This document shows positions 7,801-40,681 of a stretch of 64,000 bases of DNA, piece by piece (the first letter of the stretch is position 1; the number at the start of each line of letters is the position of its first letter). Source of the stretch: Coptis chinensis. Its lineage: Eukaryota; Streptophyta; Magnoliopsida; Ranunculales; Ranunculaceae. Both the position numbers and the translations under genes were made by a program. The notes under the pieces were generated by a model. The model made no database searches, was not told the origin of the DNA, and was given only the letters and a program-made list of their open reading frames with translations. The stretch spans positions 62,765,501-62,829,500 of the forward strand of contig CM027377.1 in NCBI GenBank assembly GCA_015680905.1, read 5' to 3'.

Positions 7801-10800
7801 TTCCTTGTTTAGGTCAGTAACAATGTTCTTAGAGGCCAATGTTACACTACATACATATACAATAATTAAATAAATTAATGATTTGCCTCAAAAAATAATT
7901 ACTCTATGCCACACATGTATAATTGTTTTATTATCAAAATTTCATCGATAAATAATATCACCATTAGCCTTTGATCGAATGCTAAGTAGACTTAGCAATC
8001 ATCTCAATTGCTTTTTGGTTCTACGATTACCAATAAATTTTACAATGGGAAAATTTCAATGAGTAATCATTTTTAACTTCCACTCATCTAAACACTCACA
8101 TGTATATCACAAAATATCGATCACCTCATCACGATAAATGATATGCATTGTAGTCTGACTTTCAAATAAAAAATTAAAATAAAGCAGCACATATTATTAT
8201 CAAGCCAGACCTTGCAGAGATGAATCCATATATACATATGATGTTAGTTTACACTAAATATCTCATGAGCATACATGCATGATATATTACCACATGAAAA
8301 ACAAATGACATAATGGTTTTATCACGTCATTATCAACATATATATGCTAATAAAACAAGGTAGATCATAGATAATGCTCGACGTACAACATCAACAACCA
8401 TTGTTAAAGTAACAGGTCATGATCCAGCATGAAAGGATAAAAAAAAATGTATACGTGTAATTATGTTATGAGTTCTACTAACGTGAATGCAAAAGAGACC
8501 TTACATTATTAATAATAATGTTGGTACCAGCCTTAGGTTGGAGAAGAAAACAGCAAGGATATGCATGTTCCAGTAATACCGAATGGAATAAAAGCTTGTC
8601 TTTTACAAAAGGAATCATCATAAAGTAGAACATAGCATATAGCATGCACAGATATTTTATTAAGGACACTAAACAAGAACTAATACACATCTACAGATGT
8701 ACTCACAAGTTCAGTGATCTCCTTCTCATATTCTAAACATATAAAACATACACCAATTACGGTACTTCCATATGCTTTGACCTTTGAACTATCATGATAA
8801 TCACGTTCAATGTTTGTAACTTTTAATCTAGTCTCATGTTCTCTCATAATAGATGATAACATGAACCAAACGAAACAGAAAACAAAGTTATCGATGGATT
8901 TTAGTATGTTCAGTGCATGCAATTACGCACATATCATACAATAAAAAAAACGATCTTTATCCTTACTTGCTCATGATACCAATGAAGACAAAAGTAAATC
9001 ACATACTTTTTGTCCAAATAGAGCAGTGAGATCAAAAGCGGAAGCGGAATCGTTGATGATCAAAGATACGTCTCTTGTTGTTGTCATCGCCACAATTACT
9101 AGAATAATGGCTATGTTTTCACACTTTAAACCTTATTGAAGTAACTAACAATGATAGTGATGTTAGAAGAAGAGTCGTGAGTATAAGAGTTTTCAGGGTC
9201 ATTCTATGTTGGTTTCACTCTACCTTTTTTATAGGGAGAGAGTGATATATACATATCGAAAGTGATATTTATCTCAATCTCAACAAGTAGAGTTTTGCTT
9301 TACTTGGAGACTTGAGTCTTGATCCAACTTGGACGTACGCACATAGCCCATGTCTTACAGTTAGCTAAAACAATAGGATTTACAACTAGAGAGTATTTTG
9401 TAGAAGGTATAAGTAGAACTGTGTAAGTTTACCAATTGCGCAAGGTACTTGCACATCTCTATTCACCTATAGTAAAAGACATGTGCAGCTTCTGCTTAGG
9501 ACCCTGTTTGTAGTGACCACAATCATTGTGGCTTTAGCTGTTCCATTCTTTGGAGATGCGATATCTCTTACTGGAGCGTTTTTAAGTGCGACAACTAGTT
9601 ATCCTACTTCCTTGCATCTGCTACCTAAGGCTAATCCAAACTTACTAGACATGGGGTTATGAGCTGGTCATTATTCTTGTTTTACTTTTGACCTAAATTT
9701 GTATTGAAAGTTTGTAGCCACCATCTACCGTGATGTTTGGTTGGTAACCAATTTCTTTCAGTCGTGTCTTTGTACAAATATATATCACCCTGGGAGATAC
9801 ATTTGATATGTCAAATTTCCATCACTTTCCAATGTCAATTGGTGCTGGTTGGACAAATTTTAGTGGACTGCTTTGGCCCCCAAGGAGCAGTTAATGAGAA
9901 TTGAGGGATTCTAGACGAGGCGCTTATAGACACGAAAGCAATGACTCGGGTTTTTTTTTTTTTTTTTTTTATCAAAGTGGTCTTAATCAGGTTTGACTTG
10001 GTGCATGATCATGTTCTTTGGAGTCTCTTAAGATATATCTTTAACAGGATGTGTTGCGATAAGGTGGTCAGAGTGCAACTTTATATTAGTTTCCTTGTTC
10101 TCTGTGGTTGTCGATGGAGCTGCCACCATGTTCCTTAGGACCTGGGAGTTCAAATTTGGAGACCTTTTAGAGCTTTTTCCATCCTTGTTCATCACATTTT
10201 AGTAGTATGGACATATGGTCCATCAAGTGGCAAGATGGCGTTGCCCAACGACTGGCACATTTAGAAGTTCATGTTAAGAAAGGCATTAAATTTCGGGCGA
10301 AAGAAAAAAAAAAGTGGGTTGGGGTGTCCACCAATTGTGTATATTTTGTCGATGTCAATCTTCGTCTGTGAAGAGTCATAATGCAAGTTCTTTTTGACAA
10401 GTTTTCTGTGGGTTTAGGTGCTGTTTGTTCTTTGTACTAATCTTGCAAAACATATTCAATCGGTATGGATCTGGTGGAGTTGGCTGCAATTATTAGATGT
10501 ATTTTGGGGAAACTTCCTACACGGTATCATCACTTAATGACGTGGAAGAGTGTCATTCTTTTATTTTGAATGTTATTGGATTGTAAATGCTATATGTATT
10601 AGCATCCTGTATGACTATGTAAAATCATTAGAAGTGCTTGACTCCACTTCTTTAGGTTTAGGAGATGACATAAAAAATAGACACGAAAAACTAGTTTGGA
10701 TCCGTTTTCAACAATATTGACTTCTCCTCTGAAACACCAATAGAGGGCCTTGCCAAGTATGCCACGGACAATGCTCTGTAGTCACACATAGGCTTCTTAC

Positions 10801-23886: not shown

Positions 23887-24870
23887 GGATTTTTGCATTT
23901 TGGACCTTGTGATAATAGTGATATTAGAGTTTGGTTCACAATTAATCGTTTATTGCACTTTGGTCCAAAATTGCCATTAGAGTGTGTTGACTGTGAGTTG
24001 ACCGAATGGCCCATTTCTATTCCGTCCATAAATTTTCTAAAACGGTTAGGCTATAGTGACACAGTTATAGTGTCACCTTTATCTCACTCCTCTCCTGGTC
24101 CCTTGGATCTCTTTTAGATTATCAGATCTAATTCACTCAAAAATCGCGAAATTTCAAAATTTTGAAGTATTTCAAAAACAAAAAAAGGGAAAAATGTGAA
24201 ATTGGGTTCTTCTTCTCCCAAAATTCATAACCCAAAATCAACAACAATAGCTATAATTCATAACCCAAAATTTTGAAACCCACGAATTGATTTTGAGTTT
24301 GATTCACATTTTGATTTCAAGTTTGATTCAAAAACTGATAAATTGGCTACGCACACCAAGGAGTTCATAAGGAAACAGCTGGAAAAGGAATTGTAAGTAC
24401 ATAATTTCGCGATGGTTTTTAATTGGTTTGGCAAAAATTGGTTTTCCAGTTGTCTACATATTCGTTTGAAGCCATAATTCATAGCTATACTTCATATACA
24501 AAAGCAGAAGCCATAAATATTGGCAAAATCAATTTGTTTAAAAACATAAGCTTGTTTTGACTTTTGAGTAATTACCTTGAATATGATATGCTCAAATATT
24601 GTTTAAACATTACTTAATATTGTTTGAATATATGACATACACAAATATTGTCTATAATATTGTTTTAACTAGCATATTCGGTGAATTCTGTCAGAGTTTT
24701 AACTAGCATTTTCGGTGAACTCTGTCAGAGTTTTGAACTAGCATATTCGGTGAACTCTGTCAAAGTTTTAACTAGCATTTTCGGTGAACTCTGTCAAAGT
24801 TTTGAACTAGTATATTTGGTGAACTTTGTCAGAGTTTTGAACTCTGTCAGAATTAATTGGGATTTTCTTC
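23887..24870 (+). repeat. Left terminal inverted repeat of the MULE
   Basis: About 984 bp. Its complement is recognisable at 36801-37570 and again at 38343-38382 and 38910-38946. It holds two copies of the (GG)ACC/TTTGGTCC-type end motif and a block of about 35-bp tandem repeats next to the interior (24662-24850). Being directly upstream of the GRF gene, it is the likely promoter for it. Confidence 0.82.
24662..24850 (+). repeat. ~35-bp tandem repeats at inner end of left TIR
   Basis: Five copies of a 34-35-bp unit with core TTTTAACTAGCATTTTCGG followed by TGAACTCTGTCAGAG, plus a partial sixth. Three copies of the same unit, inverted, lie at 36823-36928 in the right repeat. Confidence 0.88.
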
Positions 24871-25011
24871 TGTTTAACTTATGTTTGTTCATTTGTTTTT
24901 TTAATGTTATTGTTTTAAGGTTCCATAGTTATTACATATTCAGGTGATTTTACATTTGCATATTTTGATATTTTTTAATTTTTTTCTTATACAATGAAAT
25001 TCGATCTATAA

Positions 25012-25401
25012 ATGAGGTGCCCTATATGTGGAAGTTCAGTATTTAATAGAGTCTTGAGAACCAAAATGAATCGTGGACGCCCTTTCTGTGTTTGCGAAAA
25101 AAATGACAAACATTTGCCTGACAATAAGAAATGTAGGTATTTTAAGTGGGCGGATGAAGAAAATAATTGTGGAAGCTCGTCCTCGTTGAATATTACTGAT
25201 GAATTGAAATATAAAAATTCTTCTGTTCTAGCTCCAACATTTTCCCCAACTGAGAGTCAAGCTTCTATTTGCACAAGGATGATAACAACTGATTCGGAAA
25301 TTCACTCAATCGGAATGTTAATATTTAAGTTGTTGTTGGTCTGTCTTCTCTTAGCGGTTTTGTGTATTATCAAGTGGCTGGTTAAAGTGTTATTGTCTTA
25401 G
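25012..25401 (+). CDS. GRF-type zinc finger protein with C-terminal transmembrane helix
   Basis: Uninterrupted 129-codon gene starting 141 bp inside the left MULE repeat. Residues 1-50 form a GRF zinc finger: CPICGSS, then NRGRPFCVC, CRYFKWADEE, i.e. the C-x2-C ... GR-F-x2-C ... C-x2-F-W-x-DE pattern. A Ser/Thr-rich linker follows. The last 28 residues are a single hydrophobic helix (LIFKLLLVCLLLAVLCII) ending in a short basic tail. GRF fingers bind nucleic acid in other proteins (topoisomerase III, NEIL3, APE2). A small GRF-plus-membrane-anchor arrangement occurs in many plant proteins of unknown role. Here it takes the mudrB position, convergent to the transposase. It could be a second gene of the element or a captured host gene. 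No decay is visible, in contrast to the transposase. The start is the first ATG and begins the finger directly. Confidence 0.72.
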   Translation: MRCPICGSSVFNRVLRTKMNRGRPFCVCEKNDKHLPDNKKCRYFKWADEENNCGSSSSLNITDELKYKNSSVLAPTFSPTESQASICTRMITTDSEIHSIGMLIFKLLLVCLLLAVLCIIKWLVKVLLS

Positions 25402-26303
25402 ACTGGACATTAGATTTGAAGGTGTCAGATGTGTTATTACTTGATGGTAGATGGAATGAAACTATGTAATGATTATGGTGTATTGGGTGTGAAGGGAGGA
25501 GATTTTCACTATGTCGTGTGGCGTTGTCGATGATGAGTTATCCTAAGTTGAGGTTTTTGGTGGAAATTGTGGAGGAGTGCTCGACTTCAGTTGCTTTGGA
25601 TGTAGCTTATGCTTTGAATGATGTTGCTATGGAGGTAACCATCAGTTAGACTCGGGGCTTTGAACTCATCTTGAAATTCAGGTGTATTTGGTTAGTAGTT
25701 TGAATTTAGTATGTGTAAATCTTGGAAGAAGTATTATTTTGAGTAAAAGTTGGTATAATCTCTGTTTTATTTGGTATTTCATTTGTGTTATGTTCTATGA
25801 TTATTTATGTTTATTTTTACTTGTATGTGTTTGTTGCGTTTCATCGCACTTTTGAATGGATGTAGCTTTTTAGAGCTTTTTTCACAGGTTTCTGCACTCA
25901 GTTATTTTGTCTCTATTGTGACAATGAACTTTGAATGGATGTAACTCAGTTATTTCAGAGCTTCTTTCACAGGTTTCTGCACTCAGTTAAATCTAGTTTA
26001 GTAATTGGTTTGATTCAATGGCTACCACAAAGAATTTTTGCTTCAGTAGAGAGGATGGCATCACTGGTTTAGCAGCTTATTGCCCATTAAATCTTGTCCA
26101 TTACTTCTACAGAGTTCCAAGAATTCAAATGTAGCAGACATATTGAAGTCACTAAAAACAAGAGTAGAGTAGAGTAGACAAAAGAATGGCTGTAGATCTT
26201 GAGAAGATGGGCAACTTGTCAAATTTTGGCAACAGCATATAGCAAGAAGCAAAAAAGTAGAGATCCAATCTTCCTGGTAGAAAAATAGCTCAAAGTAAGA
26301 CTG

Positions 26304-26308
<5 letters not shown>
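25402..26308. other. MULE interior downstream of the GRF gene
   Basis: Likely 3' UTR/transcribed flank of the GRF gene, then unassigned sequence. A short near-repeat (AGCTTTTTTCACAGGTTTCTGCACTCAG and its variant) occurs twice at about 25876 and 25959; only its length and place are notable. Confidence 0.35.

Positions 26309-26352
<44 letters not shown>
26309..26352. repeat. (AT)n microsatellite
   Basis: About 22 uninterrupted AT units inside the MULE. Confidence 0.95.
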
Positions 26353-26354
<2 letters not shown>

Positions 26355-27290
26355 TTCGATGGTTGGAGTCTCACAAAACAAAACCATGCAGATATACATG
26401 TTAATCAAACAACTAAGATGCTCTTAAGAAAACAATACTTGAATGTCGCCAACTAGGCAACTAGCTATAAGAAAACAATACTTGATTAACATATAATCTT
26501 TTCACTGAAGTGTGGCCACCTGATGAACAGAGGTGTTTACATTACAACCTCACTTTATCTAAATTCCAGTCAGCTTACTCTGCTAGCCAGAGTGAAGACA
26601 AAATCCATAACCGGTTCTTCAGGAATAACCGTAGGTCATTTGTGAATAACATTATTCATCTGCTGATATGCTTGAATGGGTTGGGTATCTCCATTGAACA
26701 TCTGCCCAAGTGCTCTGTCCTTCAGTCACCTTCTTCCTAGTTTGCCAGCCAAAGGCATTTTCTCATTCCAGAAAGAAAATGACATGAGTTGTTTACTCTA
26801 TCCTTTTTTCAAAAAAATGAAAATATTCTATTGCCTTGCCTTTAGGCAGAGTCTAAGATATGAAATCCAGGTGGGAAGGGGAATTCAAAGGTTCATAGCC
26901 ATTAAGAAACCTATCAAAAAAAAAACGATGGAAGTACATTTCTTTGTATTGCTGTTTCACAGTTTCAAAACTCTGACAGGCAAAATGCAAAGCAAAGGCT
27001 CTTTCATGTGTCAGAGCAAAGGCAAACGCAGAGCAAAGGCAAGACGCAAAACAAAGCAAAGCAAAGCCTATACAACCATTTAAATACTTGATTATCAAAG
27101 TATGAATCCATGTGTCAGATGTCATGAGCTAACTTTAGAAATAACCATTATAGACCACATCGCCTAATATATAAAGCAAAATAAAATACAGTACCCTAGC
27201 AACTTCCTCACGGCAGAGACATTAGCAAAATAAAAAACATATTTGAGTGCACTCAGTTAAATTGAATCGACAATACCGAGTCATTGAATA
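26353..27290. other. MULE interior, unassigned
   Basis: No gene recognised. An AAAGC-rich simple stretch lies at about 26990-27065. A minus-strand reading near 26760 (KMPLAGKLGRR) looks like a gene scrap but could not be assigned. Confidence 0.35.
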
Positions 27291-27632
27291 CTAATAAGGA
27301 ACTTCTATGACTGCATGAAACAGTTCCTGTGCAGATAATGCAACAACATGAGAATTGAAATCAACTGAAGTCAGTGGAGAAAAAATCCCAATATTAGTGC
27401 TGTGGTATTCAGATTTAACTGTATCAATGAGGTGAAGAAGTATCCTTTCTAGCTCCTCTCCATCACTCCATTCATGAACACCTGCCTTGATAAGTGATGA
27501 ATTAGTGTGTATCAGATCCCCTAATGTGTAATCCTTTCTTGGCATAATATGGTCGTCTTCTTTCAGCTTCAAACATGAACAGTAGTCTCCCTTTCCATCA
27601 CCAATGTAGGTAATTCGATTATTTTCTTTTGT
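27291..27632 (-). pseudogene. HAD-family phosphatase (PHOSPHO/PS2-like) gene fragment
   Basis: Minus-strand reading gives NRITYIGDGKGDYCSCLKLK, then DHIMPRKDYTLGDLI and VHEWSDGEELERILLHL, ending at a stop at 27291. IGDGxGDYC is the last HAD motif of the plant pyrophosphatase/phosphocholine-phosphatase-like (PS2, thiamine-phosphate phosphatase) family, and HEWSDGEELE is near its C-terminus. Only the last exon-sized part is present; the catalytic N-terminal DxDxT part is missing. It lies inside the MULE and on the same strand as the PPR fragment and the transposase. Best read as a captured host-gene piece, although insertion of the MULE ends around old gene debris cannot be excluded. Confidence 0.75.
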
Positions 27633-27950
27633 GAAAGCAGAAGCTCTTATCTTCTATATTACTAGACCCTAAAGCAAACCAAAATAACTCAGAAGAGTGA
27701 TCCGATAGAAATTTATGATACATGAATTCTTTGGAAGAAAATTACACATCGATCATATAACTAAGGGCCTCAGCTGATGTCCCATGCTCATTTTGCAGGT
27801 ATACTCACCCCTACAAATCCAATAAAAGACTGGAATCAATATTCCATGTCTGACATAAGTTAATCAAGATAGCACTAAACGAAAGTATTCAACAATCACA
27901 GAGGGGAAATCAAGGGACACAGAACAACACTTGACCCATCATGAACACCT

Positions 27951-28340
27951 TTAACTTGGGACATCTTTATAGTTATAGCTAGTATACAAACTCAATATTG
28001 CATTGTTCACAAATATGCTATTTTCTCCACTCAAGTTTGTTAAATTGTAACCATGTACAACTTTTCCAAATTTAAGAGCTCTTAAGTTAGAACAAGCTGA
28101 TAAAACTGTAACAAGTGTTACCGAACTAGGCCTAACATCCATAGACATGAAAGTTACCAAGGCCGCCATATCTAAACCACTCTTAACAAGTCCAGACATC
28201 AATGAAGTCCATGACACAACATCTGGGACCAATATAGAATCAAATATTCGACGTGCAGATAAAATATCATTAGAACTAGTGAAGAAATGAATCAAAGAGT
28301 GAGGCGAGAGTGAGGAGACTTTATGAGTGATTTCTATCAA
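27951..28340 (-). pseudogene. PPR (pentatricopeptide repeat) protein gene fragment
   Basis: A 129-codon minus-strand frame with a plant PLS-type PPR pattern: SARRIFDSILVPDVVSWTSL, then MSGLVKSGLDMAALVTF, VRPSSVTLVTVLSACSNL, ALKFGKVVHGYNL, NAILSLYT. That covers about three and a half repeats of what is normally a protein of over 450 residues. PPR proteins bind organelle RNA. There is no targeting peptide and there are no further repeats, so this is a fragment. It sits inside the MULE next to the phosphatase fragment and is truncated at 28340 close to the LINE insertion. Probably captured host sequence. Confidence 0.8.
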
Positions 28341-28441
28341 GGGAAAAAGTGTAATCAGGTAACTTTTTTTTTACCCTTTTTAGCTATATTCTATTCTTTC
28401 ACGCAGATAGAATAAGGAAACGAAGCTAAAAGTTTCCCCTT

Positions 28442-28455
28442 GGGGGGGGGGGGGG
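28442..28455 (+). repeat. 14-G homopolymer in LINE leader
   Basis: Uninterrupted run of 14 G, 36 bp before the ORF1 ATG. Similar long G-runs occur at 43581, 43850 and 48745. Confidence 0.95.
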
Positions 28456-28490
28456 TTTCTTCCTGTCTGCTTGGAAACTCCATCTTTGCG

Positions 28491-30014
28491 ATGGACCTGT
28501 TGGAATTTGAGGGTCCTCCACTCCCTCGAGTGCGAGAAGCTGAAGTGAGAACCCTTTCTGACAAAAGGCCGGTAGGTTCTGCTCTAGTAGTTGCTGAGAC
28601 TCAACCACAACGTATGGTCTCCTTTGCTGACAAAGATAGAGGTGTGCAACCTCAGCATATTGATGTTGAGGACTTACCTGTACCAGAAATAAAAGGAAAC
28701 ATGCCATCAATTAAACTTCCCAAGAAAGCTGTGGAAAGGGGCTGCCTTTACTGCAAGTATTGCTTAGTGGGTCGTTTAGATATGCAGATAATCAAGCTGG
28801 ATGAAATTCGCTCTATATTAGCAGCTAAATGGTGCCCTTAAGGAAACTGGAAAATTATTCCGTTGGGGAAAGGATACTTCATGATTCGACTGACATGTGA
28901 GTCTGACTGGAGGAAAATATGGGGAGGGGGTCAATGGAAGTTCGGGGAACAAACTCTTCGACTCTCGAAATGGACACCGGACTTCGACCCTGCTGTTCAC
29001 ACCAAAACAAATGCCCTTCTATGGATTAAATTTCTGAAACTGAGCCAGCAATATTGGGACTATGAGATTCTAATGTCTATGGCCAAAACTTTAGGCTACC
29101 CTATTGGAGTGGACAAACACACTCTAGAGAGAGATTTTGGATTCTTCGCCAGTGTTCTGGCTGATGTGGATATCTCCAAATCCATACCAAATCAAATTTG
29201 GGTGGAAGAGGAAGAGGGAATCTCCTTTGTGCAGGACATTGTAGTAGTTAAAATGCCTAAGTATTGTAGACATTGCAAATCAATGGGCCACCTGGTATCC
29301 GAATGCAAGGTTCTACAGAAAACTACTAGAAGAGAAGAAACCACAAATGCACCTGCTCTTTTAGAGACAGCCCCTGAAGCAAGTAAGAAAAAAAAGAAGA
29401 AAAGAAACAAAACAAAGAACAAACAGTCTAATTGCACTAGTGGCACTAAAGATTCAGATGGAAACTACATCTCTACTCTGCCAGCAGCAGCCCCAACTGG
29501 AGCCACATCTGTGATTGATGTAGAGGTTGAAGCTATGCAGACTAGAGTTGAACCAGAAGAAAAAAATGATGAGGAACAGGGCTTCCAAGAGGCTCATGAC
29601 TCTTTCACTTCTGGGGAGAATGCAAGGGATAAGGAACAAATAATGGCAGAAGATGAGAATGAGCTTGGAGGTTTTGAAGCCTAGGAGAGGTCTGTTAATA
29701 CAGTTTCCTCCTCAGCACTAGTGGTTTTCAACCCTGTACATGAAAATGATGCTATCTAGGATGGTACCTCTGCGACCTCTGTGACCAGCCAACAAGATAG
29801 CGTAGCTGACCATGCTACGTCCCTTCCATCCCCTCCAAATCGGTCTCAGATTCTTGCTGAAGCCGACACTCTGTTGAAAGGAAACTGGGCTGATCAGGTC
29901 GATAACGATGGATGGCAAGTCAGCTCAAAGAAAGGATACAAGCCCAAGTGGAAGGTCCAGGATTTGCCTGCACCGAATACAAGGGCTAGGACTATTTCCT
30001 CCTCAAAGAAATGA
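28491..30014 (+). pseudogene. LINE ORF1 (DUF4283 / zinc-knuckle RNA-binding protein)
   Basis: One frame of 507 codons with three in-frame stops (ending near 28841, 29684 and 29759). Residues about 60-230 are the DUF4283-like region (GRLDMQIIKLDEIRSILAAK; FMIRLTCESDWRKIWGGGQW). A CCHC zinc knuckle (CRHCKSMGHLVSEC) lies near 29268-29309, then a Lys-rich stretch (KKKKKKRNKTKNKQ) and an acidic tail. ORF1 proteins of plant L1s coat the RNA and act as chaperones. The stop codon overlaps the ORF2 start as ATGA. Confidence 0.82.
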
Positions 30015-33000
30015 ATATATTGTACTGGAATGTGAGGGGAGTTAAAAGACAAGAACCTTGGTGTCACATTGAGGAGCTAGTCTCAACTCATAACCTTGAT
30101 CTTCTCTGTATAGCAGAACCTCTTATAAAGCCACCTACTATACTTCCCCCTGTATTAAGTAGGTATGGCTTCAGTGCAAACTTCTTGCATAATGACACCC
30201 TTTAAAGGGTCAGCAACCTTTGGATATTTTAGAAGAATGAAAGGGCCATTACTCTTGTCGGCCTATCTCATCAGCAGATCACAATAAGAGTAAATAAATT
30301 CCTCGTTTCTTTTGTGCACGCTAGCAGCTCCTATGGTATCCGCAAAGCACTATGGCATGATCTCTCTCAGTTTGGGTTAAATAATGAAACTTGGGCGGTT
30401 ATTGGAGACTTCAACATTGTCACTTCAGTAGCAGAAAGAAAAGGAGGTTGCTCTCCCTGTATCTCGGCTATGAATGACTTTAACAATTTCATACACTAGA
30501 ATGCTCTCCTTGACTCTACCTCTTTGGGCTTTAAGTACTCATGGTGCAACAGCAGATGGGGTAGTAAAAGAATGCTTCATAAGCTGGACAGAATGTTAGT
30601 TAATCAAGGATGGCAGGAGGGGAATGCTAGATGGAGGAGTAAAATTCTTGCTAGAAAGCTCTCAGATCACAGCCCTATTGTAGGTTGGAACACTCGAATT
30701 CCTAAACCATATAACATCCCCTTCCGATTTAGAAAGGCTTGGATATCTCATGAATCTCTTAAGGATGTGGTTGAAACAAGCTGGAATGAACCTCTTTATG
30801 ATGTGCCCATTAGAAAAGTGGTTAAAAAACTCAAAAGACACAAGCAGAAGCTGAAATCCTGGAGCTTTGATGTCTTTGGCAACCATGCCCAGCACCTCAA
30901 GCAGCTTGAAGAAGAAATGGTTCAGATTCTTAAGGACCAAGAAAATAACCCCACGGACTCCAATTTACAACAAATGGAATTTGACAAAGCTATGGAGTTG
31001 GAAGAAGTTGTTAAGGTCTCTATTGCCATGGCCAAAGAAAAAGCCAGATTGTCTGATGCATTCGAGGGAGAACATAATATTGCCTACTTCCATGCCACCA
31101 TCCAAATGCGTCTTGTAAAAGCACATATTATAGAAATAAAAAATAAGGAGGGCACTTTTTACTCAAGCACCAAGATCACATCAAGGAATACAGTGTTGAA
31201 GCCTACCAAGAAAAGTATAAGTTCCAGGCTGTGGAAATGGATGAAGCTCTCATGAACCTGATTCCAAATTTGGTTACAGAGGCAGATAACGCCACTTTAT
31301 CAACCATTCCTTCTAGAGAAGAGGTGAGAGCAGCAGTTTTTTCCATGGATGCAAATAGTGCCTCGGGACCAGATGGGTTTCAAGGCATCTTCTTTCATAC
31401 TTTCTGGAGTATCATTGGACTGGATGTAAGCTATGCAATTATATCCTTTTTTCGCGATAATGTTCTCCCAAAAGGCATAAATTCCAGCTTTCTTGTCCTA
31501 GTGCCTAAAGTAACAAATGCTATTGATGTAAACCAGTTTAGGCCTATATGCTTGAGTAATTTTATGTTCAAGATTATCACTAAGATTATTTCCCTGAGAA
31601 TTAACTCTATAGTGAGCAAAATCATTAGCGGCGAACAGCTGGCTTTCATACAAGGCAGAATGGGCACAGTGGGCATTGCTCTACCCTCGAAAATGATCAA
31701 TGAACTAGACACGAAGACCAGAGGAGGAAATGTAGGAATGAAGCTAGATATTTCTCAAGCATTTGACTCTCTCAGCTGGGAGTTCTTAATTGAGGTGTTC
31801 AAAAGGTTCGGGTTCTGTGAACAATGGTGCTCTTGGATCTCCACTCTTCTCCACAGTGCTAACATCTCAATAATGATTAATGGTGGACCATGTGGTTTTT
31901 TTGAGGCTAGTAGAGGCCTTAGACAGGGTGATCCTCTATCACCCATTCTCTTCGATCTAGCAGAAGATGTGCTAAGCAGGGGTGTTAATTGGCTTTTCCA
32001 CCATGGCAAGATTAAGCACATGACTGCAGCTGGAAAGTGCCCTAGTCCCACTCACATTTTATTTGCGGATGATGTTTTTATCTTTGTGAATGGGGATATT
32101 TGTGGACTTAGACATCTCAAAAAGCTTCTCACCTCCTATGAAAAGTCAGCATGCCAATATTTCAACTCATCTAAAAGCAAGTTGTTCTTAGGCGCCATGA
32201 ATAGAGGTAAGAAAGCAAGAGTAGCTGATCTCTTCGAATTCAGTGAAGGATCCCTTCCTGAGAAATACTTGGGTGCCCTGATCTTCAAAGGTAGGGTAAC
32301 AAGAGCTACCATTCAGGGATTGGTGGACAAAGTGAAAAGAAGAGCGAGTGGCTGGGCGGGTAGAATGCTCTCCTTTTAAAGAAGGGTGGTCATTGCTCAG
32401 TCAATTCTTAACAGTCTACCAATGTACAACATGTCAGTGTACAAACGGCCCTCAAAGTGCATCAAAGACTACGAAGCTGCCATTAGAAATTTTGTTTGGT
32501 TGGGCAATCCTGCGGTAAGAAAAGGCATCACCCTTAAATGGGAAAAGGTGTGTAAATCTCTGGAGGAAGGGGGGTTAGGCCTCAGGAAACTCAAGGAGCT
32601 TAATCTAGCTCTACTCATGAAACTTGCCTGGGTTTTTATCACAGGATTCATTGAATGGAGTCAATTTATGCAAGCAAAATTTAGAATGGCGTAAGGAGAT
32701 TGGTTAACCTACTTCAAAAAATCTTCTATCTGGCTGGGTATTCGATGGGCTATTAAGGAGATGATGCCTCACTTGGGCTGGTCTGTGGGACAAGGGAAGA
32801 ACATCAGATTGTGGAAAGACAACTGGACTGGTATTGATCTAGAGGATCTAATCCAAGGCATCAACTGGAAGCTTTTAAAATCCAAGGTCTCAGACATCAT
32901 TACTGAGGGCACATGGAATTTTCCAGTCCAAGTTCAACAAGTTTTCGCTAGAGCTGGTGTAGACATTAGCACTTTGCCACCGCCTTCTGGGGATGAAGCG

Positions 33001-34274
33001 GACTCTAGAATCTGGAAACCCACAATAGATGGTAGATTCACAGTTAAATCGGCCTATGACACCATCAGACACAGAGGTCAAGCAGTGAATTGGCATAAAT
33101 GGGTTTTGAACAATTACTTGCACCCGAGAACGGCAAGTATCACATGGAAACTCATTCACAAAGCAGTACCCATAGATGATAGAATCAGAAAGAAGGGCAT
33201 ACACCTGGCGTCAAGATGTAGACTCTGCAAAAAAGATGAGGAGTCGGTAGAACACATGCTCTGGGGCTGCGAGGCTACTTCAGAACTATGAGAATGACTA
33301 TCTTCTCTTCACAAGGTCCAGCCACCCACCAACTTTCAAGGTATCATCTCTGCTCCTAAACTTCATAGCCCCATCAGAAGAGAGCTATGGAATTCTGCCG
33401 CTGCTCACCTCATGGCTCAGATATGGAAGACAAGAAACCGAATCTACTTTGAGGACAAGAGAATGGCTATCTTCCTTCACAAGGTCCAGCCACCCACCAA
33501 CTTTCAAGGTTTCATCTCTGCTCCTAAACTTCATAGCCCCATTAGAAGAGAGCTATGGAATTCTGCCGCTGCTCACCTCATGGCTCAGATATGGAAGACA
33601 AGAAACCGAATCTACTTTGAGGACAAGAGATGGAGCAGTGCATTCATAAAAATGAAGTGATTAGGGGAAGTAAAGAATCGGGTAAAGTAGCCATAGGGTA
33701 CATGCATAACATTGTTGATGACCTGGCTATCTTGCATTCTCTGAACTTAAAGGGAAGAGCCAGACCAAACCGTATTCAGGAAGTCATGTGGTTTCCACCA
33801 GAGCCAGGAATAGTTAAAGCTAATACCGATGGCTCCTCCATTGGTAATCTAGGGATTGGTGGTGCTGGCATCATTTTCATGGACCACTTGAACCAAGTTA
33901 TGGGAGTTATAGCCCATGGGCTTGGAATCACCACAAATTTTGTTGCGGAATGCTCTGCCATAGTAATAGCAGCGGAATCAGCAGTATCAAAGGGATGGTT
34001 ACTCCTATGGATCAAAAGTGACTAAATAGCTGCTATCATGGCTCTTAGTAGGGACAGTTCTCCTTGGATACTCAAAGCAAGATGGCTTAGAGCAACCCAA
34101 AATCTTCTTTTTTGGAGATTGTCCCACACGTACCGAGAAGCCAATTTTGGTGCAGACTTAGCAGCAAAGAAGGGAGCAACTATGAACCAAGGAGAGAGGC
34201 TATGGAGTTTTACTAGACCAAGCTATATCACAAGACTAGAAACTCCAAGCATGCCTTACTCTCGTTTTAGCTAG
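30011..34274 (+). pseudogene. LINE ORF2 (endonuclease, reverse transcriptase, RNase H)
   Basis: Begins MNILYWNVRGVKRQEPW, the apurinic-type endonuclease start. VIGDFNIV and LSDHSPI follow near 30400-30670. A frame change near 31200 leads to RT: NSASGPDGFQGIFFHTFW, FRPICLSNFMFKIITKI, LDISQAFDSLSWEF, SRGLRQGDPLSPILFDLAED, and the catalytic FADDVFIFV near 32064. A zinc-binding CRLCKKDEESVEHMLWGC sits near 33220. RNase H is NTDGSSIGNLGIGGAGI, FVAECSAIVIAAE, REANFGADLAAKKG up to 34274. In-frame stops and two frame changes are present. A 168-bp tandem duplication falls between the zinc domain and RNase H. It overlaps ORF1 by four bases. Confidence 0.85.
33304..33640 (+). repeat. 168-bp tandem duplication inside LINE ORF2
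   Basis: Two copies of a 168-bp unit (56 codons) starting near 33304 and 33472. The protein word MAQIWKTRNRIYFEDKR occurs twice, exactly 56 residues apart. It is in frame with itself, with few differences, so it is recent relative to the LINE. Confidence 0.9.
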
Positions 34275-34408
34275 ACTTAGATTTGTCATGTTGTAAGCTC
34301 TCCTCTTGTGATGTAACATTCTTTATTATTTTAATACAATATCCCTACTTGTGTGCAAAAAAAAAGAATAAAAGAGTTTTGAATAAAGCTATACTTACAT
34401 TTCACATA

Positions 34409-36714
34409 TTACATATTATTTTTCTCCAGACAATTTCTTGAGTCATAGTTAGCAATCTGTCCACATCTGTGACACTTTCTTCCTGAATTGTTTAAGGCTA
34501 TCTCTCTGGGGGATTTCCATCTATCCGTTTTCTTCTTCCCCCTCCCTTTTGTTTGAGAAATGTTGGGATTCAAAATCAATAGCTGAAATAAAGATTTGAA
34601 AGTCAAAATAAACTGCAAATTAAAATAAATATTTATATCAAATTAAACACCGAATTAAACACTAAATTTATATCAAATTAAACATTCAAATAAAAAAAAC
34701 CTGTGATGTATTAACCGAAGGTATCGAAAGCTCTGCAACTAGAGGCTCTTCATCATCTGCGTCTCCTTCGTAGGAAGTTTCATTAAACTTTGAAATTCCA
34801 ATAGCCATTTCACCAATCTTTTTAATAAAATATGAATAACCCTCAAAAGTATGCGACGCATCGTAAGCCACTTGAGAAGCAACCTTGATACAATGAGCCA
34901 CTCTCAAAGGTTCATTTGAGACATTCCCGACCACAAATCCAGTATCAAACTCCGCTCTATAAGTGTTAGCCTTTTGCATCCACTGCGTCAATCTAAAATG
35001 GCTTGGAATCTCTTCAATGTCGTAACAAATAAAAATCTTCAAGATGTGACCACAAAGTATCCCCATAAACTGAAAATAATTGCATTCGTAGTCTGCCTCT
35101 AAGGTTCTGCTATCGAAATTCACTTTCCAAATGGACTTCTTCTACGGGTCTTTGAACTTCAGCATGAAGCTTCCGGATCCATTGGTGTCCAACTGTTGCC
35201 CATCAATTTTGTACTCCATCTTTGCCTTTTCTAGTTGCTCCTTAAATTTATTGAATATTGAGATCGTATAGACCTTCGCAGAATGCATAAGGAGGAAAGC
35301 ATCGTTAGGCATAATCCGTGAACTATGCTCGGTGTGGTAATCAGAATCTCTTTCTTTCCTAGCAAGCAAAGCCAAAGACTTCTCATTACCATATACAAAC
35401 TGCGTAAGCGTAGTCGTCGAATTGACAAACTGGTCATAATGAGCATTCATCGATTCACTTCGACCAGTCGTGTGCATACTAGCTAAAAAGGTGTCACTGA
35501 GATAACAAGGAACCCATTTCTCCCGCATTGAATATATCTCTGTCAACTAAGGATTTTCAGACAACTCATACTTCTCAATGATTGTACACCATCTTCTCTC
35601 AAAATCAGCAATCCTATACAGAAAAGAAATAGTGTTCTTCAACTCAGTTACCAATGTCTCAAATTTGGTAAAAGACATCTTCTCTTGGAATTTTTGCATA
35701 ATATGCCAAAGACAGTAACGATGACGAGTATTAGGGAACACTTTGGCCCATCGCTCTATCCTAGTCAGTGATGATTATAGTTGGCGCACGACCACCCATG
35801 GCTGCAAGCTAGGCTTTAAATAGCCATAAGAATGTATCTTCTGTCTCATCAAGCAACAATGCGCAACCAAACTGAATCGACTGATAATGATGGTTGACTC
35901 CAGTAAAAGGGGCAAAAGGCATGGAATATACATTGGTACAATATGTGGTATCAAAAGACACAACATCCCCGAAATAGTCATAACGGCATCAAGACCTCCC
36001 ATCAACCCAGAAAAAGTTCACCGCAGTCCCATTTTCATCTAAATTAATAGCGTAGTAGAACTGGGGATCCTCGGCACTCTTCTGCATAAAATATTTCAGC
36101 ACGACAGTTGCATCACCTTCTTTAGGCATCTTTCTGGTCAAACCATAATGATGGTTCCAACAATCCTTCTGTGTAAACCCAACTTCCTCTCCATGGAAAA
36201 CAGATGCCACTTTCCCAATAGGTAAACTGTTATCACTAAACATCTCGGTCAAGCACTTCGCTGCTTCAGGAATATGTTTGTTAGTTTTCATGCAAATTCT
36301 CTTCGATGGGGTCACCAGACCGTGACTATGGTCATTCTGAGCAACGCTGACCTCGTATATCTCTTCATGTATTCTTTTCTTAATGCGAATTCTAGCTTGG
36401 CAACCACATCGGATAGTTGATGTACTTCTTAATCCGACTTGATCTCTCTTGTTAGAAACCCCTTCACGTGAGCAAACCAGTAAACAACCACTAACCAAAT
36501 CCACATGATTTTGTTTCTTATACGTCGTCCGAGCACGAGTCTCAAATCCCTCTTGTTGACCATACTCTTTGTAGTAAGTCTTTGCTTCGTCAACAGTTGT
36601 AAAAATCATTCCTATATAAGGAGTAGCTAATGTTTGCGTGCATTGAACAGGGGATTTAGTAGACAAAGACCCAACTACGCCTTCTTCGATATTGATTGAT
36701 GTCTCTGTCTCCAT
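34409..36714 (-). pseudogene. FAR1/FHY3-type MULE transposase (mudrA-like)
   Basis: Starts at 36714, 87 bp inside the right MULE repeat, and reads leftward. The N-terminal FAR1 DNA-binding domain reads MIFTTVDEAKTYYKEYGQQE ... CGCQARIRIKK (36600-36360). It ends FFWVDGRS, typical just before the MULE catalytic core. The core follows in other frames: [15 protein letters not shown] (first Asp), GGRAPTIIITD (second Asp), VFPNTRHRYCLWHIMQKFQE. A SWIM finger (CNYFQFMGILCGHILKIF) lies near 35050-35110. A terminal zinc knuckle-like CHRCGQIANYDSRNC lies near 34450, with Tyr where His is usual. Frame changes near 36000 and 35100 and stops near 35820, 35756 and 35546 make it nonfunctional. In MULEs this enzyme cuts and moves the element; FAR1 and FHY3 are host transcription factors derived from it. 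Confidence 0.88.
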
Positions 36715-36822
36715 TTCTATAAATAAAAAAAATTAAAAATATAAATAACTTAAACAGATAAAAATCCCAAAGTACATAAACAGTGTAAATAACTTAAAAA
36801 GAAGAAAATCCCAATTAATGCT

Positions 36823-36928
36823 AGTTAAAACTCTGACAGGAGTAAACCGAAAATGCTAGTTAAAACTCTGACAGAGTTCACCGAAAATGTTAGTTAAAAC
36901 TCTGACAGAGTTCACCGAATATGCTAGT
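36823..36928 (-). repeat. ~35-bp tandem repeats at inner end of right TIR
   Basis: Three copies of the same unit as at 24662-24850, inverted (core CTAGTTAAAACTCTGACAG). The copy number differs between arms (five plus a partial versus three), so the arms have diverged since their last equalisation. Confidence 0.85.
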
Positions 36929-37570
36929 TAAAACAATATTATAGACAATATTTGTGCATGTCTTATATTCAAACAATATTAAGTAATGTTTAAACAATAT
37001 TTGAGCATATCATATTCAAGGTAATTACTCAAAACAAGCTTATGTTTTTAAACAAATTGATTTTGCCAATATTTATGGCTTCTGCTTTTGTATATGAATT
37101 ATAGCTATGAATTATGGCTTCAAACGAATATGTGGACAACTGAAAAACCAATTTTTGCCAAACCAGTTAAAAATCATCGCGAAATTATGTACTTACAGTT
37201 CCTTTTCCAGCTGTTTCCTGATGAACTCCTTGGTGTGCGCAGCCACTTTATTAGGTTTTGAATCAAACTTGAAATCAAAATGTGAATCAAACTCAAAATC
37301 AATTTGTGAATCAATTCGTGGGTTTCGAAATTTTGGGTTATGAATTATAGCTATTGTTGTTGATTTTAGGTTATGAATTTTCGGAGAAGAAGAATCCAAT
37401 TTCGCGTTTTTCCCTTTTTTCGTTTTTGAAATACTTTGAAATTTTGAAATTTTGCGATTTTTGAGTGAATTAGATCTGATGATCTAGAGAAGAGATCCAA
37501 GGGACCAGGAGGGGAGTGAGATAAGGGTGGCACTATAACTGTGTCACTATAGCCAAACCGTTTCTAAAAT

Positions 37571-38342
37571 GCCCATAATACCTTGCACATGTTGTACACA
37601 TGACTTACTTGAGGACCAAACTGTAAATATTGCTATTAAAAGTGGGACTAATTATTAAAAACTACACATGACATCATCTCATTCATTCAATCCAAGACAA
37701 TTAATATTTTTTTTCTTTAACACCGCTCCATCACCACCTCCACCTTCAGTAACAATCTGAATTGTCACCACCACCACTATCTAAAAGCAATGGTCGCCAT
37801 TAACACAATCAACTACCAATCAAAAACTCATTTTTTACATTTTCACTTTACGATTATATTTTCAAGTTTGTCAGCGATCTTTGAACATTCAAGTTTGTTG
37901 TTGACTTTGATACTCAATTGTTTTTGGATTTCGGGTTAAGATAAGGGTTGTTAAGATTTTTGTCTCATTTATTAGGGAGTTTAAGTTGAAATTTCAAATA
38001 CATAATCTTATTCTTTTTTAAAATTCAAAATTAATTTTTGTAGTCCTATAGTGTTTTAAGTTCAATAGAACAAATGATTTTGATTTTTGTATAAAGTTGA
38101 GAAAGCTAGATGACGGTGATTGTGCAATGGTGATGAATGAGGTGATAATTGAGTGGTGGAGGAAAAAGTGGTGGTGGTTGTGGCGGTAAGATATGAAGAA
38201 TATAAAATGTAAGTTTGGGACTCAGTTAGTTAAGATACATATGGTGTAAGACGAGTCGTTGATTAAAATCAAATGATTAAATGATGCATAATAATTTTAA
38301 GGGTAAATATGGTATTATGAAATTTTAGATAGACTGACGAGG
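37571..38342. other. Unmatched segment within the right MULE repeat
   Basis: Has no counterpart in the left repeat. It contains GGACCAAACTGTAAAT and short CACCACC/GGTGGTGG stretches at opposite ends (about 37730-37790 and 38150-38190) that could pair, suggesting a further inserted foldback sequence. No coding seen. Confidence 0.4.
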
Positions 38343-38382
38343 CCAAAATGCAATAAACGATTAATTGTGGACCAAACTTTAA

Positions 38383-38906
38383 GAGCATCATCAACGTGTT
38401 GTTAAAACAAATTGTCACACATTAGCTTTTTTCGTCGATCAAAATGGCTATTTTTGTGTCAAGTACCAACGCATTTTCGACAAATTTTGGGTTTCTATTT
38501 CAGATGGGAATAGTTGTCCCGTCCAACATCTTGGGCCCAAAAAAATATATCCCGTTTTAATTTGTTAATTTTAATTTTTTATTAAAAAAAATTGAAAAAG
38601 TTATGGACGACAAAACTTATCCTGTCCAATATCTTGGGACCCACATGCAAAATCGAGATGCTTTAATTTTTTATTAAAAAAAAAAGAAAAAAATGTTGGA
38701 CGGCAAAACTTGTTCCGTCCCACTCTTGGATGGGACAACTTGTCCCGTGCTAGTCATTTCTATATTTCTGACTAATTTGGTTTCGGATTTGACAATTGTT
38801 AAAATAAAAATAGTGATTTGCATTGACAGAGCGTTGGGGACGAAAATTGCCAAATTGTTTGTCAACTGTCACATTAGAAATGAATTATAACAATGCGTTG
38901 ATGCTA
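38383..38906. mobile_element. PIF/Harbinger-type MITE, 524 bp
   Basis: Left end GAGCATCATCAACGTGTTG; right end complement of TAGCATCAACGCATTG. TAA lies on both sides (38380-38382 and 38907-38909), the 3-bp A/T target duplication of PIF/Harbinger elements. Removing it rejoins the MULE terminal repeat to match the left arm. Noncoding. Confidence 0.7.
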
Positions 38907-38946
38907 TAATATCACTATTATCACTAGGACCAAACTGCAAAATACC

Positions 38947-39112
38947 AGTTAAGTGATGGCCGTTGATTAGTTTCACGTGCAGTGTTAGGGTAATTTGGAT
39001 ATTAAGAAAGTATAGACGGACCTCTGTTAATTTGAGACCAAAGTGCAATAAATGATTAATTGTGGACCAAACCCTAAATTTGCTATTAATAGTAGGACCA
39101 AAATGCAAAAAA
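38947..39112 (-). repeat. Second, outer copy of the MULE terminal motif
   Basis: Ends with a sequence whose complement is GGTTTTTTGCATTTTGGTCC at 39112-39093. Inside it is another ACAATTAATCATTTATTGCA block like that of the true termini. It is either a tandem duplication of the terminus or the end of a second family member. Confidence 0.65.
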
Positions 39113-39299
39113 CCTAGAAAACTAATATCGGGCAAAGGTTGAATATCCTAGACTCCTTGGGTTGAGTAAAGGTCGTGCTGAGTAGAAGCCTAGAAGGCAA
39201 AATAATGCATAGCAGAATATCCAATAAGGGCATATGAAGACTGTGTTGAGGTGGGTGTGAATGTATTAAATGCTGGGTATCAAGTAGGCAATTCACTAT

Positions 39300-39716
39300 G
39301 GATAAACTACTGTTTTAACCCTTGTACTCTTGGTCAACTAACATTCTTCCTCTTGTACAAATTTAACAGCTTAAAACACATTGTACTCTTGGTCAACTAA
39401 CATTCTCTCCCTTGTACAAATTTAACAATTTAAAACACATTGTATTCTTGGCCAACTAACATTCTCACCCTTGTACACGTGGGCATAACCCGATTACTAG
39501 GATATTTAGCGTTAAAATAAAATAAAATAAAAACAAACAGTACAAGGGTGAGAATGTTAGTTGACTAAGAGTACAATGCGTTTTAAGCTGTTAAATTTGT
39601 ACAAGGGGGAGAATGTTAGTTGACCAAGAGTACAATGCGTTTTAAGTTGTTAAATTTGTACAAAGGAGAGAATGTTAGTTGACCAAAAGTACAAGAGTTA
39701 AAACAGTAGTTTATCC
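39300..39716. mobile_element. Foldback (Mutator-type) element, 417 bp, 9-bp target duplication
   Basis: Nearly the whole element is two inverted arms joined by a short loop (about 39480-39535). The ends are GGATAAACTACTGTTTTAAC and its complement. Each arm has three copies of a roughly 60-bp unit (core TTGGTCAACTAACATTCT then TTGTACAAATTTAACA). The flanks ATTCACTAT (39291-39299) and ATTCAGTAT (39717-39725) form a 9-bp duplication with one difference, which points to Mutator-superfamily transposase. Noncoding. Confidence 0.88.
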
Positions 39717-39725
39717 ATTCAGTAT

Positions 39726-40681
39726 TTACTGTTTAATGCTTATATATCACCAATTTTTACGTCATTCACGTTTAAAATGCAATTCCTGTATGTATCAGGT
39801 ATTGGTCGACAAGAAGGTTCCATTCCGACTCTTTTAAGGGACACTTTAAAATGCCTCCCTGGCTGGATACCATCGTTTTGCATTGAAGTACACACATAAA
39901 TGTATCTTGATACAAATCAATAATGGCAAGTAACTAAGGGAGTCTCTTTATGGAGTTTGAAGAGAATTTTTGCTGTTGGCAATGTATTATCAAATATCAA
40001 TGCTGAAAAGCAAATTTTAGTAAGTTTAAAATTTCGCAGGTTGGCTACTTGATTCTCTGCTTGTAAGCATTGTCCCAACTAATCCCCTTCACATACTACA
40101 TGTGGATATAAGTAACCAGAAGTGTCTGCAGACAAAAGCACTGCAAGAGTACAGAGGTTTTTCGTTTTTATTTTCCATTTCTTTGTTCCCTGCTATGCTA
40201 TGCAATTGTTCCAATATGCCAAGCAGGACAAAGTTTCAGCTATGTAACTATGCATTATGCAAGCAGACCCATATTTCATCTATCTAATATTTATATTTCA
40301 TATTTTCTAAACCAGTCCATGTACCAAATGATGAGACATCAATGATCCAGCCTGTTCTATGATTCTATCTTGCAGTTTATATTTCGAAAAATATAGAAGA
40401 TAAAACAATAGTGATACGGAAATTTGATAGTATTACTACAGTCACTTGCAAATAATTGATGGTTGACATTGTCAGATACTAGTATGTAACAAGCTTTCTT
40501 TGTAATTTGGACTGTGATGTGTCGTAGGCTCGTAGCACTGTAGCAGGGCCTATGATAGTGATATTACTTTGTACTTAGTGTTTGCTGCTACTAGCACTTA
40601 CATGCAGATAGGCCCATCTTCTTTCTCGTTTTTTAGTTCATCATCTATATAAAATTGGTTTGGTTTTTAAGGTTTTGATCC
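39726..40681. other. Intergenic, no recognised gene
   Basis: Two short stretches preceded by AG (near 39800 and 40040, the latter reading WLLDSLLVSIVPTNPLHIL) resemble exon scraps but could not be assigned to a family. Confidence 0.35.

Follow-up and report, generated by a model that had tools for sequence, protein, structure and literature searches.

Evidence for a Mutator-like element lineage in Coptis chinensis, part of which carries a GRF zinc-finger gene convergent with the transposase gene

We analyzed a stretch of 64,000 nucleotides from Coptis chinensis (assembly GCA_015680905.1, contig CM027377.1, forward-strand positions 62,765,501 to 62,829,500), referred to below as the window and numbered from its first letter. 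The window contains a Mutator-like element (MULE) of 13,518 bp (24043-37560), whose limits are set by terminal inverted repeats (TIRs) and a target site duplication (TSD). From the left TIR, an intact gene for a small GRF zinc-finger protein runs inward on the plus strand, and a transposase gene runs inward from the right TIR on the minus strand. A first-pass annotation, made from the letters of this DNA, likened the arrangement to that of MuDR and proposed that the GRF gene might be a new accessory gene of a plant MULE lineage. According to the results presented here, the window copy very probably belongs to a MULE lineage some of whose members have two genes, with the GRF gene convergent with the transposase gene.

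The limits of the element are well defined. The two TIRs, about 740 bp long in the window copy, align over 24043-24779 and 36817-37560 with identity in 695 of 729 ungapped columns; the differences comprise 24 transitions and 10 transversions. Weaker homology continues inward to about 24882 and 36789, and with this extension the left TIR covers 24043-24882 (plus strand) and the right one 36789-37560 (minus strand). The inner part of each TIR consists of 34-35-bp tandem units, 5.3 copies on the left (24662-24843) and 3.4 on the right (36817-36934). Thus, the long inverted repeats with inner tandem units described in the first-pass annotation are confirmed by both the TIR alignment and the arrays, and the distances of 141 and 87 bp that it gave from the repeats to the two genes fit open reading frame (ORF) starts at 25012 (GRF) and 36714 (transposase). 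Immediately outside the TIRs lies the 9-bp TSD TTTCTAAAA, with the left copy at 24034-24042 and an exact right copy at 37561-37569. In a chance control, an exact 9-mer, sought with loose limits, occurred in 16 of 20,000 random site pairs. The long TIRs, a TSD within the 8-11 bp range and a MULE-type DDE transposase together agree with the features of the MULE superfamily. The left limit had previously been put at 23887, but this position belongs to a separate inverted repeat (23887-23972 and 39029-39114, 83%) that surrounds the MULE and is without a clean target duplication. This enclosing repeat is probably an older element that received the MULE insertion. Comparison with Rfam at gathering thresholds gave no match.

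The GRF gene (25012-25401, plus strand) codes for a protein of 129 residues. Its zinc finger matches the Pfam family Zn_ribbon_GRF (PF06839) with an E-value of 1.3e-7 and 32 bits (cut-off 25.9), and its C-terminus is hydrophobic (19-residue segment at residue 102, mean 3.15). A structure model based on an alignment with 24 relatives has a helix at residues 94-128 and a poorly predicted middle part. In ten-residue blocks, the predicted local distance difference test score (pLDDT) is 76-88 over residues 1-50 and at least 96 from residue 101; folding without the alignment gave a mean pLDDT of 54.9. The earlier description of a GRF zinc-finger gene at the left repeat is upheld by the Pfam score, and the C-terminal hydrophobic helix would fit the membrane part of that description. 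Among solved structures, the GRF domain of human NEIL3 comes closest, both by sequence (E-value 3.3e-4) and by fold comparison with the model (probability 0.98, E-value 0.095). Homologs agree at 70% or more in 21 columns, and the window protein matches 14 of these, including the cysteines C3, C6, C28 and C41, which we take to be the zinc ligands of the finger. The seven differences are at residues 14, 15, 16, 21, 24, 27 and 72. Directly before the start codon ends an in-frame upstream ORF of five codons (24994-25011, plus strand), which could be a former N-terminus or could serve translation control. We did not use the length of the GRF ORF as evidence, because the same stretch holds a further ORF of 135 codons and ORFs of 129 codons or more arise in 8 of 1000 Markov sequences. 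Its intactness was likewise dropped as a sign of selection, since merely 5 positions are one C-to-T or G-to-A step away from a stop.

The transposase gene (34686-36714, minus strand) contains MULE and FAR1 domains, both matched by Pfam above the cut-off (E-values of 1.5e-13 and 2.6e-13, respectively), whereas a SWIM match stays just under it (18.1 bits versus 19.6, E-value 0.002). Reading frames point to a putative 3' exon at 34404-34612 on the same strand, in which a degenerate CCHC-like motif can be discerned by eye. The gene is broken by five in-frame stops and one frameshift, so that the whole transposase cannot be made by the window copy; 44 positions left in it could each become a stop by a single C-to-T or G-to-A change. 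A protein search with the transposase N-terminus gave one match, from Trifolium, among 88 candidates.

To find out how often the two genes occur together, we searched the source genome (935.6 Mb in 116 contigs) with the GRF protein and with the N-terminus of the transposase. The GRF protein gave 152 matches (150 scored of 221 candidates), which excludes that the gene is peculiar to the window copy; the 150 listed matches collapse to 126 genes. With the transposase query, all 150 candidates scored, out of 2356, were matches. Among the matches listed, GRF and transposase lie within 5 kb of each other in 20 pairs, each of which is convergent (binomial p 9e-13 at a chance of one in four, with pairs treated as independent). 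Within 12 kb, 23 pairs are convergent and 3 are arranged otherwise. It might be argued that GRF belongs to a dispersed family of ordinary host genes and that its closeness to transposases reflects chance or a shared regional preference. For 103 of the 126 listed GRF genes there is indeed no listed convergent transposase within 12 kb, with 150 of the 2356 transposase candidates scored. Moreover, the pair at locus L049, found by sequence, is absent from the listed pairs, and the pair counts are accordingly a lower bound. However, the uniform orientation of the close pairs is hard to reconcile with such an origin, and so is the finding that a convergent GRF lies within 12 kb of 23 of the 150 listed transposases, compared with 0.175 expected when GRF places are shuffled. 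In addition, 13 of the 21 loci considered below have the GRF gene enclosed by two mapped TIR ends. We consider this explanation extremely improbable. Chance or artefact as the source of the structure is ruled out by the TSD, the TIRs, the recurrence and the orientation taken together.

We examined at the sequence level the window and 20 fetched GRF loci of about 10 kb each (ranks 2-21 by GRF score). All 21 loci were picked by their GRF gene, and the set is therefore biased toward GRF presence. A TIR tandem array is located no more than 900 bp upstream of the GRF gene in 18 of the loci, and both TIR ends could be mapped in the 13 already mentioned. A complete convergent transposase (5/5 segments) is present in eight loci (the window, L032, L035, L036, L043, L046, L049 and L050), and L031 has one segment. 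No transposase was found between the two mapped TIR ends in seven loci (L034, L037, L038, L039, L040, L045 and L047), and in the remaining five (L033, L041, L042, L044 and L048) its status is undecided within the fetched stretch. L035 has both genes, with no TIR found by these searches. Thus, several members with GRF at one end and transposase at the other, the check that the first-pass annotation had suggested, are seen both here (eight of the 21 GRF-chosen loci) and in the genome-wide list (23 of 150 transposases). Four of the fetched two-gene copies have both ends mapped; their sizes are 6,827, 8,191, 7,063 and 6,988 bp, the ends being estimated. The GRF frame is open in all seven fetched two-gene loci; we rejected an open GRF beside broken transposases as evidence, because selection of the loci by GRF score biases it. 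In L034, two GRF genes or fragments face each other, one per end (5174-5359 and 8031-8417), and a transposase was not found.

The family also shows a target preference. At least four TA units occur within 60 nt outside 20 of 31 mapped element ends, compared with 96 of 4000 random positions. The window copy is not situated in (TA)n and has the ordinary 9-bp duplication instead. In family copies that do lie in (TA)n the TSD is not resolvable, and an exact-match TSD scan of L032 and L034 found none.

Pairs of the two genes span two subfamilies, and both genes have diverged together. Over 23 pairs, identity to the window's proteins is high for both GRF and transposase in 8 cases and low for both in 13. 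The identities of the two proteins are correlated (Spearman 0.62-0.63, p about 0.001), also when the window's own pair is left out (0.57-0.58); the ranges reflect which match was used for three GRF genes represented by two. Because the convergent pairs recur and span two jointly diverged subfamilies, GRF is a recurrent second gene rather than a one-off capture, but in part of the family.

The same elements carry further gene fragments. A PPR-like gene fragment (27951-28370, minus strand; Pfam PPR_2 9e-6, 26.1 bits, under the cut-off of 30) recurs in 7 of the 21 loci (the window, L031, L032, L034, L036, L049 and L050). It is probably an old captured passenger, as its median ratio of nonsynonymous to synonymous divergence (dN/dS) is near 1 (1.06 for 20 pairs of 7 copies). 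The window copy also contains the C-terminal part of a phosphatase gene (27291-27653, minus strand; Pfam Put_Phosphatase 5.8e-21), which none of the 20 other loci matches. Pack-MULEs carry captured host gene fragments and no transposase of their own; the window copy has these two fragments together with a broken transposase gene. The median pairwise dN/dS of GRF is 0.34 in group A (10 pairs), 0.56 in group B (60 pairs), 0.71 between the two groups (60 pairs) and 0.50 against a distant copy (17 pairs); groups A and B cover 17 of the 30 GRF sequences, the pairs are interdependent, and copies decay once inserted. For transposase segments the medians are 0.56, 0.72 and 0.72. Between groups A and B, the ratio of nonsynonymous to synonymous differences per site (pN/pS) in GRF is 0.69 for the finger, 0.95 for the linker and 0.55 for the tail.

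A number of observations weigh against the two-gene interpretation. First, none of the eight transposases examined (the window and seven fetched loci) is stop-free throughout, and the longest stop-free stretch in the seven fetched two-gene loci is 286-427 amino acids; hence, there is no two-gene copy with an open transposase among those examined. Second, 127 of the 150 listed transposases, including 29 of the first 35, are without a listed convergent GRF within 12 kb, which argues that the GRF gene is dispensable or often lost. A GRF gene near the closest transposases would probably be listed, and therefore many copies seem to be without GRF or to have it displaced or decayed. The first-pass annotation would have counted copies lacking GRF against its proposal; such copies are seen in part, which confines the gene to part of the family. 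Third, 2 of the 23 pairs are mixed in GRF versus transposase identity. Finally, the median dN/dS is 0.98 for the GRF gene of L026 (17 pairs) and 0.78 over all 402 pairs of the 30 GRF sequences, and pooled pN/pS values are 0.82 for GRF, 0.91 for the PPR-like passenger and 0.59-0.68 for segments of the transposase. By medians, then, GRF resembles the transposase more than the passenger, and by pooled counts it is intermediate and closer to the passenger. With such mixed numbers, constraint on the GRF protein is indicated, not proven.

The pooled value, the transposases without a listed GRF neighbor and the captured PPR-like and phosphatase fragments could all be accommodated if GRF, too, were a passenger host gene, captured in the Pack-MULE manner and spread with the MULE without any role in the element. 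GRF genes of this type are, moreover, common in dicot genomes. Such a capture, however, leaves unaccounted for the position of GRF next to the TIR array and its presence through two subfamilies with jointly diverged genes. The GRF median dN/dS is below that of the passenger in most groups, and every one of the eight two-gene loci, the window included, has a complete GRF ORF, although the seven fetched ones were picked by GRF score. We therefore regard capture as quite improbable and retain the two-gene interpretation. Our high confidence applies to this interpretation as such, and any particular function of the GRF protein is rated much lower.

We compared the family with known systems. The maize element MuDR (mudrA and mudrB) is similar in having TIRs, a 9-bp target duplication and two oppositely transcribed genes. 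The MuDR genes each begin just inside a TIR, and the window copy likewise has two convergent genes, one at each TIR. The differences are that the transposase here has an N-terminal FAR1 domain and that the second gene codes for a GRF finger with a C-terminal hydrophobic helix. The MuDR-like layout noted in the first-pass annotation is real, and it is in layout that the two elements resemble each other. In domain order the transposase resembles the Jittery type, a MULE subgroup of dicots and monocots with FAR1 at the N-terminus and SWIM or CCHC at the C-terminus (PMC6446971): FAR1 is N-terminal and above the cut-off, and at the C-terminus there are the SWIM match (18.1 of the 19.6 bits of the cut-off) and the CCHC-like motif. 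Jittery-type elements are described as having one ORF and TIRs of 39-292 bp (PMC6446971), whereas the TIRs of the window copy are about 740 bp long and part of the present family has two genes. More than a single ORF is found in the window and the seven fetched loci, all GRF-chosen; the 127 listed transposases without a listed GRF stand beside them.

The (TA)n target preference recalls MuTAnT of Medicago truncatula, a MULE that inserts into (TA)n microsatellites and makes 9-nt duplications at other sites (PMC4486113); the likeness is one of description. The published account gives 200-300 bp as the size of 90% of MuTAnT copies and describes the putative autonomous copy, AutoMuTAnT, as having a single ORF for a Jittery-like transposase (PMC4486113). 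By contrast, the four two-gene copies measured here are 6.8-8.2 kb long. Abermu of barley and other plants resembles the present family in having an extra ORF that runs in the opposite direction to the transposase; this ORFR is reported to have no known function and to be missing from the rice element (PMC9168764). Other extra ORFs listed for MULEs are mudrB of MuDR, the ORFs of PMD (often antisense, in several plant groups), vanB and vanC of Hiun and mutB of Mutyl (PMC6446971). The term 'GRF' is absent from the main texts of PMC6446971 and PMC9168764. A literature search of open-licence articles, covering titles and the beginnings of abstracts, found no MULE with a GRF gene.

How unusual is the GRF protein itself? 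A profile search, with the window protein and four generic GRF sequences as the query, yielded 79 proteins at an E-value of at most 0.01 among 138 candidates. The organisms named for these proteins are plants, which we take to be dicots. Most are named uncharacterised or hypothetical, and one is named At1g43920-like. These small plant proteins share the GRF finger with the window protein, and 43 of the 79 also have a C-terminal hydrophobic 19-residue segment. A protein search with the GRF protein alone returned no match among 6 candidates, and scans of viral contigs and one pattern scan of genome contigs found no relative. GRF proteins with the helix occur widely in dicots, so this type of protein is not new, and MULEs with extra ORFs are already known. 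The proposal of a new accessory gene is accordingly sustained as regards a recurrent second gene of this MULE lineage, but not as regards a new type of protein.

A possible mode of action can be outlined. Each TIR with its tandem units may serve as both promoter and transposase-binding site for the adjoining gene. More speculatively, and by analogy with NEIL3-type GRF domains, which are nucleic-acid binders, the GRF finger might bind single-stranded or branched DNA. The tail helix might anchor the protein to a membrane, either the nuclear envelope or the endoplasmic reticulum, and the protein might aid the transposition complex or protect the element, in trans. A broader conjecture is that the small GRF-helix proteins of dicots are largely encoded by the second genes of FAR1-type MULEs forming a widespread clade, and that they act as a membrane-anchored, nucleic-acid-binding trans factor, perhaps at the nuclear envelope, which may aid landing in easily melted (TA)n. 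We offer it tentatively, as possible rather than probable. Alternatively, within the two-gene interpretation, GRF might act against silencing or bind the TIRs, as a factor comparable to VANC of VANDAL elements, instead of helping integration. An accessory anti-silencing protein has been reported for Hiun (PMC6446971), and the tandem units in both TIRs could be the sites of such a factor, yet a C-terminal hydrophobic helix is ill-suited to a freely diffusing chromatin factor. We judge this variant unlikely.

The window has further features. Inside the MULE lies a nested, broken long interspersed nuclear element on the plus strand (approximate limits 28416-34366, about 5.95 kb) with DUF4283, a reverse transcriptase and a CCHC match below the cut-off. 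Within it there is a 168-bp tandem duplication (97%) at 33290-33630. Outside the MULE, 59-bp tandem units in inverted orientation form a foldback at 39279-39737, and nested inverted repeats extend across a copia gag region at 5717-7838.

The function of mudrB, the second gene of MuDR, has been called not well defined (PMC4486113). A second gene that codes for a recognisable finger and a membrane-type helix, and that has been kept opposite the transposase through two subfamilies, offers a handle on the role of such genes. It could also help to explain the numerous GRF-type proteins in dicot gene sets and alert annotators that some GRF-type proteins are transposon genes. The link to (TA)n targeting is a second question opened by the family.

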